From assembly GCF_014643535.1 (NCBI RefSeq), contig NZ_BMJQ01000012.1, forward strand, positions 186,001 through 250,000: a DNA stretch of 64,000 nt. Reading direction: 5' to 3'. Position numbers and translations under genes: made by a program. The stretch comes from Aliidongia dinghuensis (GTDB lineage Bacteria; Pseudomonadota; Alphaproteobacteria; ATCC43930; CGMCC-115725). Every line of letters starts with the position of its first letter. Position 1 is the first letter of the stretch. The notes under the pieces are model-generated. The model did not search any database and was not told where the DNA came from. It saw only the letters and a list, made by a program, of their open reading frames with translations. Below are positions 2,464 through 14,303 of the stretch, piece by piece.

Positions 2464-4695
2464 TCAGGCCAGCGGCATTTCGCTTCGAAGCAGTGCGGAC
2501 ACTTCGTCGAGTGCGATCGGCCGGCTGAAGAAATAGCCTTGGGCGTGATCGCAGTCGCGCTCGCGCAGCAGCGCGTACTGCGCCTCGGTCTCGACACCTT
2601 CCGCGATCACTTCCATGCCGAGGCCGTGCGCCATGGCGATCAGCGTTTCGATCAGACGTACCGAATTGTCGTTGTGGCTCGAGGCGACGAATGTCCGATC
2701 GATCTTCAAGATGTCGAACGGGTAGCGCTGCAGATAGGCGAGCGAAGAATAACCCGTGCCGAAATCATCGATCGACAGGCGCACGCCCAGCGCGCACAGC
2801 CGGTCGAGATTGGCCGTGATCTCCGCCGTGTCGTCGAGCAGCACGCTTTCCGTGATCTCGAGCTCCAGGCAGCGGGCGGGAAGGTCGTTGCGGCGGAGCG
2901 CCTGCTCGACGAAGCCGGCGAAGCCAGGCACCTGGAGCTGGCGCGGCGAGACATTGACCGCGACGCGGGCGAGTGGCGTGTCGCCCAGAAGATGCTCGCG
3001 CATCTGGGCGCAGGCCGTCTCGATCACCCAATTGCCGATCCCGGTAATGAGGCCGGTTTCCTCGGCGATCGGCACGAAATCGTCGGGCGTTGCGAGCGCA
3101 CCGTCCGGCTGACGCCAGCGGATGAGCGCCTCGACCCGCCCGATGCGGCCGGTCGGCAGGTCGACGATCGGCTGGTAATGCAGAACGAATTCGTTGCGCT
3201 CGACAGCGCCGCGCAGCCGGGCCTCGACGGCGAGCCTCGCCTGCATCTGCTGATCGATCTCGCGGGTGAAGAACCGATACCCGTTGCCGCCCTGCTCCTT
3301 TGCCTTGTACATGGCGACATCGGCATTGCGCAGCAGGGTCTCGCTGTCCTTGCCGTCGCGCGGATAGAGCGTGATGCCGATGCTGGCCGTGACGAAATGC
3401 TCCTGGCCATTGATCAGGAAGGGCTGGGCGAAGGCCTCGACGATGCGGCCGGCAATCCGTTGGGCGCCGTCATCCTCTTCGACGGCCGGCAAGACCACGA
3501 TGAACTCGTCGCCGCCCATGCGGGCGAGCGTATCGGTTTCGCGCACGCAGCCGCTGAGGCGTTCCGTCGTGAGCTTCAGCAACCGATCGCCTGCGGCATG
3601 GCCGAGCGTGTCGTTGATGTCCTTGAACCGGTCGAGGTCGATGCACAGCAGGGCCGCCTGGCGCCGGTCGCCGGTCGTCGCGGCGATCGTCTGGCTGAGG
3701 CGCTCATGCAGCAACAGGCGGTTGGGCAAGCCGGTCAGGCTATCGTACTGCGCCAGCCGCAGCAGCTGCTGTTCGTAATCGAGCCGCACGCGGATATCCC
3801 GCTCGAGCTCGTCCTTGGCCTCGCGCAGATCCTCATAGGCGCGCTTGAGCCCGGTCGACATGTTGTTGAAGGCGCCGACGACGTGATCCAGCTCGTCGTC
3901 GATCTTCGGCCTGCGGCGGTTCAGGCGCAGGGGCGGCGACGGCGCGCGGAGATCATATTCATCGACGAAGTCGGCAATCTCGAACAAGTGGCGGGTGATC
4001 AGCCGGTGCACGATATAGAGAATGAACAGCGAAACGAGGAACGTCTTTACTCCCTGCGTCAGCAGCAGGACGATCGCGGTATTGCCGAGCCGCCGATAGA
4101 TTCCTTCCAGCGTCGCCTCGGCACGCAGGACACCGATCGCCCGCGTCTGGCCGCTCTCGGTCCGGGTGAGCGGCACTTCGCGGACAATCACGCCGCGGGC
4201 GCGGCTTGATCCGACGGAAACCACGAGCGGCTTCGCTCCCTCGGCCGCGGTCTCGCGCACTTCCAGCGACTGCATGTCCGGCAGGCGCAGGATGCCTTCC
4301 AATTGCAGCCGCAATTGACCGACATCGAGATTCCAGAGACTGCCGGCGAGGCTATCGACATAGCCGTTCTCGATCTCGGTAAGGCGGCTCACCACGGTCC
4401 GGGTCTCGTGGCGATAGTCGAGATAGAGCTGCAGCCCGGTGGACACGAACGTCACCGCCGAACTGAACAGCACGATGAGCGTGAGCAGCCTGCACGCGAC
4501 GCCCTGCCGGCGGCGCGCGAAGGGCGACAGAGGGTTCTGGACCAAGGCGCTTCGATGCGGTCCCGCCGACGCTATCCTGTCGTCGGCGACCCGTGCCGCC
4601 GTGGCCCTCTTCAGGTCCGCGGTGAAGGTCAAGCTGCCGAGCCATCGCATCCATGGATGGGAAGGGAGGCTCGTGAAGGGTGCGGTGTCTGTCAT
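2464..4695 (-). CDS. Membrane-bound GGDEF-EAL cyclic-di-GMP enzyme
   Basis: A 743-residue protein with a first membrane helix near 66-92, a periplasmic sensor domain (about 93-206), a second helix near 207-232, a HAMP linker, then GGDEF and EAL domains. The GGDEF motif is intact at 394-398, with an inhibitory RxxD site (RETD, 385-388) exactly five residues before it. The EAL motif is at 522-524. Later catalytic elements (NVSPRQL, LEITES, DDFGTGYSS, LKIDRTF, AEGVETEAQ) are all present. Both synthesis and breakdown of c-di-GMP are therefore possible, with periplasmic input choosing between them. It is transcribed alone; the start-site Shine-Dalgarno is weak. Confidence 0.9.
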   Translation of the reverse strand: MTDTAPFTSLPSHPWMRWLGSLTFTADLKRATAARVADDRIASAGPHRSALVQNPLSPFARRRQGVACRLLTLIVLFSSAVTFVSTGLQLYLDYRHETRTVVSRLTEIENGYVDSLAGSLWNLDVGQLRLQLEGILRLPDMQSLEVRETAAEGAKPLVVSVGSSRARGVIVREVPLTRTESGQTRAIGVLRAEATLEGIYRRLGNTAIVLLLTQGVKTFLVSLFILYIVHRLITRHLFEIADFVDEYDLRAPSPPLRLNRRRPKIDDELDHVVGAFNNMSTGLKRAYEDLREAKDELERDIRVRLDYEQQLLRLAQYDSLTGLPNRLLLHERLSQTIAATTGDRRQAALLCIDLDRFKDINDTLGHAAGDRLLKLTTERLSGCVRETDTLARMGGDEFIVVLPAVEEDDGAQRIAGRIVEAFAQPFLINGQEHFVTASIGITLYPRDGKDSETLLRNADVAMYKAKEQGGNGYRFFTREIDQQMQARLAVEARLRGAVERNEFVLHYQPIVDLPTGRIGRVEALIRWRQPDGALATPDDFVPIAEETGLITGIGNWVIETACAQMREHLLGDTPLARVAVNVSPRQLQVPGFAGFVEQALRRNDLPARCLELEITESVLLDDTAEITANLDRLCALGVRLSIDDFGTGYSSLAYLQRYPFDILKIDRTFVASSHNDNSVRLIETLIAMAHGLGMEVIAEGVETEAQYALLRERDCDHAQGYFFSRPIALDEVSALLRSEMPLA

Positions 4696-10474: not shown

Positions 10475-12193
10475 ATGTCCAAGGGTCTGCGCAAGGGATT
10501 GACGAGCTACGGCGACGCGGGGTTCTCGCTGTTCCTGCGCAAGGCGTTCATCAAGGCCATGGGCTATTCCGACGATGCGCTCGACCGGCCGATCGTCGGC
10601 ATCACCAATACCTACAGCGACTACAATCCGTGCCACGGCAATGTGCCCGTGCTGATCGAGGCGGTGAAGCGCGGCGTCATGCTGGCGGGCGGCATGCCGA
10701 TGGTGTTCCCGACCATCTCGATCCACGAGAGCTTCGCGCACCCGACCTCGATGTTCCTGCGCAACCTCATGGCGATCGACACGGAGGAGATGATCCGCGC
10801 CCAGCCGATGGACGCGGTCGTGGTCATCGGCGGCTGCGACAAGACACTGCCGGCGCAGATCATGGCGGCGGCAAGCGTCGACCTGCCGACGGTCGTGGTG
10901 CCGGTCGGGCCGATGGTCGTCGGCCATCACAAGGGCGAGGAGCTTGGTGCCTGCACCGATTGCCGGCGGCTGTGGAGCGCCTATCGCGCCGGCGAGATCG
11001 ACGAGGCCGAGATCGATACGGTGAACGGGCGCCTGGCCCCCTCGGTCGGCACCTGCATGGTCATGGGCACGGCCAGCACCATGGCCTGCGTGACCGAGAC
11101 GCTGGGCCTCTCCCTGCCGATGAGCGCCACCATTCCGGCGCCCCATGCCGAGCGCGTGCGGCTCGCCGAGGCAAGCGGCAAGCGTGCCGCCGAAATGGCC
11201 GTCACGGGCGGGCCGAAGCCCAGCGAGCTCCTGACCCCGGCCGCGTTCCGCAACGCCGCGACCGTTCTGCAGGCGATCGGCGGCTCGACCAACGGCTTGA
11301 TCCATCTGACGGCGATCGCCGGCCGCGTTGGCCATGCGCTCGATTTCGCCGAGTTCGATCGGCTCGGCCGCGAGGTGCCAGTGCTGATCGACCTGAAGCC
11401 CTCGGGCCAGCATTACATGGAGCATTTCCACCATGCCGGCGGCCTGCCGCGCCTCTTGGCACAGCTGGGCGACCGGATCGATCTCGACTGCCGGACCGTC
11501 GCCGGCGGCACGCTGCGCGAAGTGGCCGCCGCGGCCGAGATCGTGCCGGGCCAGGACGTGATCCGCTCGGTCCAGGACCCGATCAAGCCCGAGGGCTCGA
11601 TGGCGGTGCTGACCGGCAACCTGGCGCCGCGCGGTGCGCTCATCAAGCATGCGGCCGCCTCGCCTCGGCTCCTGCAGCATACCGGCCGCGCGGTGGTGTT
11701 CGACTCGGTCGAGGACCTGGCGGCGCGCATCGACGCGCCCGATCTCGACGTCGGGCCCGACGACGTGCTGGTCCTGCGCAATACCGGCCCCAAGGGTGCG
11801 CCCGGCATGCCCGAGGCCGGCTACCTGCCGATCCCGAAGAAGCTCGGCCGCCAGGGCGTCAAGGACATGGTGCGCATCTCCGATGCCCGCATGAGCGGCA
11901 CGGCATTCGGCACGATCGTGCTGCACGTGACGCCGGAATCGGCGGTTGGCGGACCGCTGGCGCTCGTGCAAACCGGCGATCAGATCCGGCTCGACGTCGC
12001 GGCCCGGCGCATCGACCTGCTGGTCGACGAGGCCGAGCTGGAGCGGCGCCGGGCGGCCCTGCCGGCAACGGCCAAGCCCGACTGGGCGCGGCGCGGCTAT
12101 GCCCGGCTGTTCCACGACAGCGTGCTGCAGGCCGACGCGGGCTGCGACTTCGACTTCCTGGTTGACCGCGACGGGGCTGAGGAGCCGGCTTAG
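10475..12193 (+). CDS. IlvD/Edd-family dehydratase, probable sugar-acid (pentonate) dehydratase
   Basis: A 572-residue iron-sulfur dehydratase preceded by GGGAGGAG. The three cysteines expected to hold the cluster are C53 (YNPCHGNV), C121 (GGCDKTLPA) and C194 (GTCMVMGTAS). The cluster is probably [2Fe-2S], as in L-arabinonate and xylonate dehydratases. The segment SGQHYMEHFHHAGG and the overall length are closer to sugar-acid dehydratases than to the branched-chain enzyme IlvD, so dehydration of an aldonic acid to its 2-keto-3-deoxy form is more likely than valine/isoleucine synthesis. No other sugar-acid gene is adjacent. Its stop overlaps the stop of the convergent AraC-type gene. Confidence 0.8.
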   Translation: MSKGLRKGLTSYGDAGFSLFLRKAFIKAMGYSDDALDRPIVGITNTYSDYNPCHGNVPVLIEAVKRGVMLAGGMPMVFPTISIHESFAHPTSMFLRNLMAIDTEEMIRAQPMDAVVVIGGCDKTLPAQIMAAASVDLPTVVVPVGPMVVGHHKGEELGACTDCRRLWSAYRAGEIDEAEIDTVNGRLAPSVGTCMVMGTASTMACVTETLGLSLPMSATIPAPHAERVRLAEASGKRAAEMAVTGGPKPSELLTPAAFRNAATVLQAIGGSTNGLIHLTAIAGRVGHALDFAEFDRLGREVPVLIDLKPSGQHYMEHFHHAGGLPRLLAQLGDRIDLDCRTVAGGTLREVAAAAEIVPGQDVIRSVQDPIKPEGSMAVLTGNLAPRGALIKHAAASPRLLQHTGRAVVFDSVEDLAARIDAPDLDVGPDDVLVLRNTGPKGAPGMPEAGYLPIPKKLGRQGVKDMVRISDARMSGTAFGTIVLHVTPESAVGGPLALVQTGDQIRLDVAARRIDLLVDEAELERRRAALPATAKPDWARRGYARLFHDSVLQADAGCDFDFLVDRDGAEEPA

Positions 12194-13137
12194 GCAGCCG
12201 CCCCCGACCGGCGCGCCTCGCCCGGCCTGATGCCGAAGCGGCGCTGGAAGGCGCGGCTGAACGTGCTCTCCGACTGATAGCCGACCTCGGCCGCGATCGC
12301 GGCGAGGGTCGCGGTGCCGGCCAGGAGCTTGTGCCGGGCGAGGCCGAGCCGGAGCTCGGTCAGGACGGCGAGCGGCGCCATGCCGGCAGTCTTCTGAAAC
12401 AGGCGCACCAGGGTCGCGCGCGAGGCGCCCGCATGGGCCGCAAGCTCGTCGAGCGCCCAGTCGTGCGCCGGCGCCTCGAGCATGGCGGCGAGCGCCCGCG
12501 CCGACTGGCGCTGGCCCAGGAGCGCCAGCAGGCCCGGATGAGCGGGCTCGCGCGCCAGATAGGTGCGCAGCACCATGACCAGGAGCGCGCTCGCGAGATC
12601 GGTCGCAATCGCGACGGCACCCGGGCGTGCTCCATCGAGCTCATCGCGGATCGCCGCCATCAGCTGCCGCAGCTGGTCGCTGTCCGGATCCTGCCGGGCG
12701 CGCAGCACGATGACCGGCGGCAGGGTCGCCAGGATCAGGTTCTGGTGCGCCTGCTCGAACATCAGCCGGCCGCACACGATTTCCGTGTCGGGCTCGTCCT
12801 CGACATTCGTCTTGAGCAGGATCGCACCGGTATGGCCGAGCCGGAGTGCGGCCGCCCGCTGGAGGCTTGCTGGCGTCGTCGGGCCGCGTAGCGAGTGGGC
12901 GCCGCCATGAGGCAGCACGGCGACATCGCCGGCCTCGAGCGGGATCGGTGCGAGGCCGGCCACCTCGATCCCGCAGCTTCCGCGCGCCACCAGATGGAAC
13001 GGTGCCCAGCCGCCGGTCGAGATCTCGTGCGGCGAGGCCCATTGCGCGCCGAACCGGCACAGGCTTTCGAGCTCCGGCCGGACGCGCAGCAGCGGCGCGA
13101 GCCCGCTCAAGGCATCGGGCGATCCGGACGGCGTCAT
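12190..13137 (-). CDS. AraC-family regulator, RclR-like (reactive chlorine sensor)
   Basis: 315 residues with an N-terminal cupin-type domain (APIPLEAGDVAVLPHGGAHSL) and a C-terminal AraC double helix-turn-helix (WALDELAAHAGASRATLVRLFQ; LAAIAAEVGYQSESTFSRAFQRRFG). The ATG at 13137 is used because longer frames would run into the divergent gene. Cys27 (ESLCRFGAQW) and Cys122 (TEIVCGRL) sit at the places of the two redox cysteines of Escherichia coli RclR, as I recall that sequence; a third, Cys55, is extra. Divergence from an AhpD-like gene and an RclC-like gene strengthens the match. Role inferred: oxidant-triggered activation of those two genes. Confidence 0.75.
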   Translation of the reverse strand: MTPSGSPDALSGLAPLLRVRPELESLCRFGAQWASPHEISTGGWAPFHLVARGSCGIEVAGLAPIPLEAGDVAVLPHGGAHSLRGPTTPASLQRAAALRLGHTGAILLKTNVEDEPDTEIVCGRLMFEQAHQNLILATLPPVIVLRARQDPDSDQLRQLMAAIRDELDGARPGAVAIATDLASALLVMVLRTYLAREPAHPGLLALLGQRQSARALAAMLEAPAHDWALDELAAHAGASRATLVRLFQKTAGMAPLAVLTELRLGLARHKLLAGTATLAAIAAEVGYQSESTFSRAFQRRFGIRPGEARRSGAAA

Positions 13138-13169
13138 GTCGGATAGCGCTCCTCCTGCGCAAGATCGAT

Positions 13170-13252
13170 CCGTTGGGCCATTTCGCTGATCCTTGCTGCC
13201 ATCGGGCGTGACGAGGCTCGGCCTTACCTTCTGTGCATCGGCCGCTGGGCCA
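13170..13252. promoter_or_regulatory. Direct repeats CCG(T/C)TGGGCCA in the divergent promoter region
   Basis: CCGTTGGGCCA at 13170-13180 and CCGCTGGGCCA at 13242-13252 differ at one base and lie 72 bases apart in the same orientation, between the AraC-type gene and the gene at 13285. Paired direct repeats are typical of AraC-family binding sites, so these are candidate sites for the RclR-like regulator. Confidence 0.35.
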
Positions 13253-13284
13253 GGCCAAGCGGTTCTGAGAACAGGAGATTTAAG

Positions 13285-13632
13285 ATGTCCATGCTCGATT
13301 GGAACACCTATCGCCAGCAGCTGACCGTCAAGGTCGGCGAGATCGCCAAGCTCAGCCCGGACACGATCAAGGGCTATCAGGCACTGAGCGCCGCCGGCCA
13401 GAAGACCGACTTGCTCGGCGCCAAGACGCGGGAGCTGATCTCGCTCGCGGTTGCGGTCGCGATCCGCTGCGACGGCTGTATCACGGTGCACACCAAGGCG
13501 GCGATCGACCAGGGGGCGACCCGCGAGGAGATCGCCGAGGCCTTGGGGGTCGCGACCGCGATCAATGCCGGCGCCGGCATCGTCTATTCGGCCCGCGTGC
13601 TCGACGCCTACGCCCAGGCGACCAACGCCTGA
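13285..13632 (+). CDS. Carboxymuconolactone decarboxylase family protein, AhpD-like
   Basis: A 115-residue all-helical protein with the AhpD peroxidase-type motif C62-D-G-C65-I-T-V-H69 (CxxC then His), so a thiol-disulfide or peroxide-reducing role is more likely than aromatic-ring lactone chemistry. ACAGGAGAT precedes the ATG. It is the first gene of a two-gene unit with the RclC-like gene, starting about 150 bases from the divergent RclR-like regulator. The context supports an oxidant-defence function, possibly reducing oxidised thiols or chloramines; the substrate is unproven. Confidence 0.8.
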   Translation: MSMLDWNTYRQQLTVKVGEIAKLSPDTIKGYQALSAAGQKTDLLGAKTRELISLAVAVAIRCDGCITVHTKAAIDQGATREEIAEALGVATAINAGAGIVYSARVLDAYAQATNA

Positions 13633-13673
13633 ACCCGCTCTCCCAACCCGTGCTTGCGAAAGGAGTCTGGATC

Positions 13674-14303
13674 ATGCGCTCCCTTGTCGACACTGTGCTG
13701 GCCCGTCTCGGGGCCAGCGACCGCCTGGGCCTCGCCCTCATGCGCGTTGCCGTCGCGGTCATCTTCCTGTGGATCGGCGCCTTGAAGTTCGTGCCGTACG
13801 AGGCCGACAGCATCACGCCGTTCGTCGCCAACAACCCGGTCATGTCGCTGTTCTACAAGCATCCCGACCAGTATCGGGCGCATCTGACCCGCGAGGGCCA
13901 GCTGGTGCCGGCCGAGCGCGCCTGGCAGACCGAGAACAACACCTACGGCTTCTCCACCGGCTTGGGCGTCGTTGAACTGACCATCGGTACGCTGGTGCTG
14001 CTTGACCCGATCTCGGTGCCGCTGGGCTTCCTGGGCGCGCTCTTGGCGTTCCTGACGCCGTTCGTCACGCTCTCGTTCCTGGTGACGACGCCCGAAGCCT
14101 GGGTCCCGGCGCTGGGCGACGCGGAGCATGGCTTCCCCTATCTCTCCGGCGCCGGCCGGCTGGTGCTGAAGGATACGGCGATCCTGGCGGGCGGCCTGCT
14201 CATCCTGGCGGACTCGGCCCGCTCGCTCAGGCGGAAGCTCGCCGCCCGGTCACAGAAGCGAGGGGCGGTCGAGACGAAAGGGGTGACGGTGGCAGCCGAA
14301 TGA
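13674..14303 (+). CDS. rclC: RclC/YkgB (DUF417) family inner-membrane protein
   Basis: 209 residues, four predicted membrane helices. The family pattern is clear: LMRVAVAVIFLWIGALKFVPYEADSITPFVANNPVM, then GVVELTIGTLVLLDP and a helix ending in PFVTLSFLVTTPEAW. AAGGAG lies nine bases before the ATG. In E. coli, rclC is induced by RclR under hypochlorous-acid stress; its biochemical role is unknown. Here rclA (the flavin reductase) and rclB are absent and an AhpD-like gene takes their place. The symbol reflects family membership and context. Confidence 0.75.
   Translation: MRSLVDTVLARLGASDRLGLALMRVAVAVIFLWIGALKFVPYEADSITPFVANNPVMSLFYKHPDQYRAHLTREGQLVPAERAWQTENNTYGFSTGLGVVELTIGTLVLLDPISVPLGFLGALLAFLTPFVTLSFLVTTPEAWVPALGDAEHGFPYLSGAGRLVLKDTAILAGGLLILADSARSLRRKLAARSQKRGAVETKGVTVAAE

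Follow-up and report, generated by a model that had tools for sequence, protein, structure and literature searches.

Which signal would an RclR-like regulator answer to when its neighbours encode an AhpD-like protein and RclC in place of the RclA and RclB of Escherichia coli? The question is raised by a locus of the alphaproteobacterium Aliidongia dinghuensis in a 64-kb stretch of contig NZ_BMJQ01000012.1 (hereafter, the window), which an original prediction had described as a slimmed-down oxidant-response module with an effector different from that of E. coli. An AraC-type regulator gene of the RclR clade (12190–13137, minus strand; 315 amino acids, with a Cupin_6 sensor domain and an AraC helix-turn-helix) lies divergent from two genes on the plus strand: one for an AhpD-like protein of the CMD family, resembling RclX (13285–13632; 115 amino acids), and rclC (13674–14303), whose product is a DUF417 membrane protein of 209 amino acids without cysteine. 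The gene positions given in the prediction were correct. The gap between ahpD and rclC is 41 bp, which suggests one operon. We put at roughly 0.7 the probability that an RclR-family activator, oxidised by oxidants like hypochlorous acid (HOCl) or hypothiocyanous acid (HOSCN), switches on ahpD-rclC.

In this mechanism, the activator, probably a dimer, would bind a direct repeat with a spacing of 21 bp that immediately precedes the ahpD-rclC promoter. Cys27 and Cys122 in the cupin domain would be oxidised by a strong thiol oxidant, HOCl, HOSCN or chloramines being the likeliest, and the oxidised regulator would activate the operon. By means of its CxxC pair, the AhpD-like protein may then reduce the oxidant or the thiol products that arise from it; RclC may protect at the membrane.

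The closest tested system is rclR-rclX of Pseudomonas aeruginosa (PA14_07340, PA14_07355; PMC7950407), in which, as here, an RclR-type AraC regulator adjoins an AhpD-like CxxC gene; published systems are cited here and below from excerpts of the papers named. RclR of P. aeruginosa induces rclX under HOCl and HOSCN, and the rclR and rclX deletion mutants are both sensitive, the rclX mutant to HOSCN only at a higher dose in lysogeny broth (PMC7950407). RclX, compared by its published description, has four of the five AhpD catalytic residues, the same count as the window protein (PMC7950407). In contrast to the ahpD-rclC pair of the window, rclX is a single-gene operon without rclC (PMC7950407). 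RclX was not identified by name in the plasmid records or in the genomes behind the surveyed Pseudomonas loci; in three further Pseudomonas loci (L229–L231), the AhpD gene next to an RclR-like regulator is 43.9% identical to that of the window over 114 columns.

The founding system, E. coli rclR-rclABC, also responds to HOCl and HOSCN (PMC7464077, PMC12096828). It shares the regulator clade, both sensor cysteines and RclC with the window; however, it has RclA and RclB, for which the window has AhpD instead, and the 21-bp repeat is missing from its intergenic region. No significant match to RclA or RclB of E. coli was obtained in the window (best E-values 6.1 and 1.8), and their predicted absence thus holds for these 64 kb, to which the RclB search was confined. 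RclA was sought genome-wide, and the best of six relatives is assigned to another family of flavin adenine dinucleotide (FAD) oxidoreductases (359.8 against an RclA cut-off of 740); a second relative (L249) matched no family, probably owing to a wrong reading frame. The predicted difference in effector from E. coli stands in that AhpD takes the place of RclA and RclB, but it is not unprecedented, since P. aeruginosa RclR drives the AhpD-like rclX (PMC7950407). A DUF417 membrane protein (RcrB) is likewise placed under a redox-sensing regulator in rcrARB of uropathogenic E. coli; that regulator, RcrR, differs in being a TetR-family repressor (PMC9600549).

The regulator scored 113.2 bits with PF12852 (Cupin_6) and 80 bits with PF12833 (HTH_18). 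E. coli RclR is activated via Cys21 and Cys89, a pair that forms an activating disulfide (review PMC7464077). With the translation from locus L025 as the E. coli reference, two separate alignments placed Cys27 of the window regulator in the column of Cys21 and Cys122 in that of Cys89, upholding the predicted equivalence. Nevertheless, the two cysteines alone are a weak mark of RclR, because Cys122 is common across the Cupin_6 family. This emerged from a context-blind sample of Cupin_6 regulators drawn regardless of their neighbours, in which 103 of 112 loci had a scorable central regulator and nine had one that was too short or absent; the draw was uneven, 30 loci being the best-scoring of a phylum search and 56 being every second entry of a list of 112 others. 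Cys122 was present in 75/103 regulators, Cys27 in 29/103 and both in 28/103, and the pair was consequently rejected as a diagnostic. A CMD-type gene lay within 1.2 kb of 13 of the 28 regulators with both cysteines, compared with 8 among the remaining 75 (Fisher p = 0.0002, uncorrected for kinship), many of these matches being weak (19–39 bits).

A more specific pattern was found in Cys27, His37, His48, His81 and Cys122 (CHHHC), all of which lie in predicted strands. These five residues are invariant in 44 of 44 aligned rows, comprising the window and 43 of 51 regulator stretches from RclC loci; among the eight stretches left out, the second regulator of L033 reads GSYHC in place of CHHHC. His48 and His81 are frequent across the context-blind sample, but His37 occurs in 8 of the 29 regulators with Cys27 and in none of the 74 without it. 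A quick maximum-likelihood tree was built from 87 rows, namely every one of the 42 with CHHHC and 45 drawn at random from the 93 without it, with the five CHHHC columns still included. One branch of 44 rows, supported at 96 in the Shimodaira–Hasegawa-like approximate likelihood ratio test, held the 42 CHHHC rows and two others, with the window regulator and E. coli RclR inside it; the window regulator fell within a 19-row subclade with a support of 100. This supported grouping makes the regulator a member of the RclR clade. Judged from these sequences, the CHHHC pattern is a better mark of that clade than the cysteine pair.

The products of the two divergent genes agree with what had been predicted, namely an RclC homologue and a protein of the AhpD type. 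RclC passes the NCBI equivalog model NF040476 (303.9 bits, cut-off 275) and is 63% identical to E. coli RclC. The AhpD-like protein matches PF02627 (CMD) with 72 bits and the ahpD core-domain model TIGR00778 with 53.8 against a cut-off of 27.8; against the AhpD subfamily model TIGR00777 it reached 21 bits, below the cut-off of 191.95. Since it passes the core-domain model only, we name it AhpD-like and not AhpD. Across 71 aligned open reading frames, window copies included, Glu50 is conserved in 70 and Cys62, Cys65 and His69 in all 71. These are four of the five catalytic residues of Mycobacterium tuberculosis AhpD, and Gly64 stands at the fifth position. The nearest solved sequences are the CMD-domain protein 7y4r and 5dik, which is named AhpD and is presumably Legionella Lpg0406, used to model RclX. 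The window AhpD has matches of varying strength in 1418 plasmid records, and in 583 of these the identity is 60–80%.

The arrangement recurs well beyond A. dinghuensis. A species-genome collection was scanned with an RclC alignment, and the best 80 of 132 relatives were kept, ten of which are enteric by title and 70 non-enteric; AhpD genes were called at more than 90 bits with a profile of the relatives of the window AhpD. Of the 80 loci, 48, including all ten enteric ones, have a CHHHC regulator no more than 2.5 kb from RclC, and an AhpD gene of the window type lay within 1.5 kb in 34 of the 70 non-enteric loci and in none of the ten enteric loci. RclA at 69% identity or more was found only in the ten enteric loci among those surveyed. 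Both partners were present in 25 of the 70 non-enteric loci; a further nine had AhpD with no scored CHHHC regulator within 2.5 kb, three had another CMD type and one had another regulator. The non-enteric carriers include Bradyrhizobium, Sphingomonas, Novosphingobium, Methylobacterium, Azospirillum, Inquilinus, Luteibacter, Dyella, Rhodanobacter, Massilia, Pararobbsia and Pseudomonas. Since the three genes recur jointly in alpha-, beta- and gammaproteobacteria, their arrangement is not a matter of chance. The locus is a recurrent form and not a cut-down E. coli operon. Among 99 genomes around that of the window, itself included, AhpD at 65% identity or more was found in five and RclC (E ≤ 1e-30) in two; the copy in the same-family genome G013 (L007) is identical to locus L030 over the 2,839 bases compared.

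The predicted operator is a direct repeat of GATCC-N5-GCCAT with a second copy 21 bp downstream (13167–13202, plus strand). The spacing was examined in 28 non-redundant promoter regions, each preceding an AhpD gene from which a regulator-like gene diverges, and self-similarity at spacings of 10–40 bp was compared with dinucleotide shuffles. Only the 21-bp spacing was in strong excess (combined z 10.3, which overstates independence as the loci are related), the other 30 spacings lying between -3.3 and 2.3. By eye, the half-site differs among alphaproteobacteria, xanthomonads and pseudomonads, and the spacing is constant. Two half-sites 21 bp apart suit an AraC-type dimer. In several promoters a possible -10 element was seen by eye 21–23 nt past the repeat, as expected for an activator adjoining RNA polymerase; in the window, the candidate is TTACCT (13224–13229, plus strand), 21 nt past the operator, recognised by eye beside related promoters.

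Within the window, the repeat pattern, allowing three or fewer mismatches, fits nowhere but at 13167–13202 (0.12 matches expected), and this is also its sole exact match in the 7.37-Mb genome. A matrix was trained on 13 sites chosen by eye, a choice of which the 28-promoter test is independent; with each site left out in turn, the matrix gave the missing site the top rank within its own locus all 13 times. When other loci (1.44 Mb, both strands) were scanned with the matrix, all 20 matches of at least 20 bits had a regulator, AhpD or RclC gene no more than 400 bp away, a few of them lying on its downstream side. Some of the 20 duplicate training sites or the window site, and about 13 are new, including those of L041, L044 and L020 described below. 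Because the scanned loci are rich in such genes, the position of the matches is suggestive and not a free test. Taken together, these observations lead us to infer that the repeat is the operator. A dispersed regulon was also considered and rejected: the pattern with up to three mismatches occurs at 68 places in the genome (one exact, three with two mismatches, the rest with three) against one for the backward control, and as it resembles common coding words, only the exact genome match was used. Two Sphingomonas ahpD-rclC operons (L041 and L044, near 4488–4525) carry the operator with no RclR-type gene found within 5 kb, so that the regulator may act from elsewhere. In L020, a copy of the operator lies upstream of the regulator's own gene.

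Several results weigh against this account. The regulator is 31% identical to E. coli RclR and scored 160.3 bits against a cut-off of 400 with the NCBI RclR equivalog NF040475; it is therefore not classed as an RclR equivalog. Accordingly, the predicted RclR-like identity stands as to clade and equivalent cysteines and falls short as to equivalog status and to the cysteine pair as a mark. Among the 70 non-enteric RclC loci, 13 have the regulator without AhpD, and 19 have neither partner near, some of the latter being cut by contig ends or holding gene fragments (L083, L101). A genome of the same genus (G001) has the regulator and AhpD and lacks RclC, which suggests a core of regulator and AhpD, such as P. 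aeruginosa has, with RclC as an optional second effector. For 7 of the 28 promoters, no 21-bp repeat agrees at more than 8 of 16 bases; a good repeat at this spacing is also lacking between rclR and rclA of E. coli (8/16), where the best tried was 12/16 at 20 bp. A scan for sigma-70 promoters and terminators found none, and TTACCT is absent from the sigma-70 scan matches.

The same switch could respond to another signal, namely reactive electrophiles, quinones or organic peroxides, on which AhpD would act as peroxidase or thiol reductase. We regard this as possible, if clearly the less likely explanation. The CMD family is broad, and AhpD relatives 61% and 64% identical to that of the window occur on Klebsiella (NZ_CP069967.1, L022) and Pantoea (NZ_CP020945.2, L023) plasmids in a cluster of TetR, thioredoxin, alkene reductase and DsbA-family genes, which looks like electrophile stress and is compatible with general thiol stress. 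However, the window regulator belongs to the RclR clade, and its neighbour RclC is tied in its E. coli form to HOCl and HOSCN (PMC12096828, PMC7464077). Moreover, the P. aeruginosa rclR mutant did not differ in growth from the wild type in the presence of H2O2, tert-butyl hydroperoxide, methyl viologen, N-ethylmaleimide, methylglyoxal and diamide (PMC7950407).

It is very improbable that the locus is a catabolic module, with the CMD protein acting as a carboxymuconolactone-type decarboxylase or an enzyme related to it and the AraC protein responding to an aromatic metabolite. CMD is indeed the Pfam name of the AhpD-like protein, and many AraC-type regulators bind small molecules. Yet the conserved CxxC, Glu and His and the match to the ahpD core model described above speak against this, the decarboxylase model TIGR02425 gave only 28.3 against 155.7, and the two flanking genes scanned by Pfam, an ILVD/EDD-type dehydratase upstream and an OpgC-type gene downstream, are not of an aromatic pathway. 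We favour oxidation of the RclR-clade regulator by HOCl- or HOSCN-like oxidants.

The structural model of RclC (mean predicted local distance difference test score 82) most resembles NACHO/TMEM35A (Z 10.9, root-mean-square deviation 3.4, 128 residues aligned), followed by a row at Z 7.6 and VKOR-type rows at 5.4–5.9; Foldseek returned nothing at E ≤ 0.001. As a Z of about 13 is advised for helical bundles, the weak resemblance to NACHO/DoxX-type membrane proteins may reflect a mere common helical-bundle arrangement and is a lead. DUF417 presumably belongs to a DoxX-like group. One alignment (A2) omits L034 and some other loci and trims some rows. It is conceivable, though we think it quite unlikely, that both of two extensions hold: that RclR-clade sensors are metal-thiolate cupins, in which CHHHC forms one metal site and oxidation by HOCl or HOSCN frees the metal and activates the regulator, and that RclC is a membrane partner of DoxX/NACHO fold through which the CxxC enzyme AhpD is connected with the quinone pool. 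In the open-licence literature, to which all literature searches here refer, no RclR paper was among those listed for RclR together with a metal or a cupin.

Our results bear on the distribution of the Rcl proteins. RclR, RclB and RclC have been stated to occur primarily in Enterobacteriaceae (PMC7527725, with strict BLAST limits), and RclB and RclC mainly there (PMC12096828); in the available excerpts the role of RclC is called unknown (PMC12096828/PMC7527725), and its loss makes E. coli more sensitive to HOSCN (PMC12096828). We found RclC in numerous alpha-, beta- and gammaproteobacteria, where its neighbour is frequently an AhpD-type thiol enzyme in place of RclA. The spread itself was not hidden, since RclC is already so named in the NCBI annotation of Rhizobium and Novosphingobium plasmids; the added part is the linkage, the operator and the residue pattern. 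From genomic sequence, RclC and RclR-clade regulators outside the enterics appear tied to an AhpD-type partner and a shared predicted operator. Among the papers listed, none on RclC or DUF417 was found that brings in AhpD or treats RclC together with alphaproteobacteria, and no publication was found on the ahpD-rclC module with its operator; as far as this literature was searched, the 21-bp direct-repeat operator, recovered at other copies of the module, is new. The AhpD linkage provides a partner with which to study RclC, the predicted operator a site usable for finding regulon members, and CHHHC a mark separating RclR-type sensors from other Cupin_6 regulators.

Several minor features were also observed. 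The open reading frame of the regulator was listed with a GTG start at 13491; the true start is most likely the ATG at 13137, giving 315 amino acids, with a ribosome-site-like AGGAGGAG seen upstream by eye. Ribosome sites were likewise seen by eye on the plus strand ahead of ahpD (AGGAG, 13273–13277) and rclC (AAGGAG, 13660–13665). The same genome holds two further modules (L004, G000:C9:182040-185462; L003, G000:C2:215428-218841), in each of which a Cupin_6 AraC regulator with both cysteines lies opposite a more distant DUF417 gene; in L004, a peroxidase-related CMD gene lies between the two. The nearest RclA relative in this genome (L248, G000:C6 near 242968; 40%, of the other FAD oxidoreductase type) adjoins an open reading frame that reads like a peroxidase-related CMD protein with CxxC. 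On a Methylobacterium currus plasmid (L020, 4424–4959), RclC is split over two frames by a frameshift or sequencing error. In three Pseudomonas loci (L053, L102 and L103), RclC is followed by another, peroxidase-related CMD type, which constitutes a second RclC/AhpD-like pairing.

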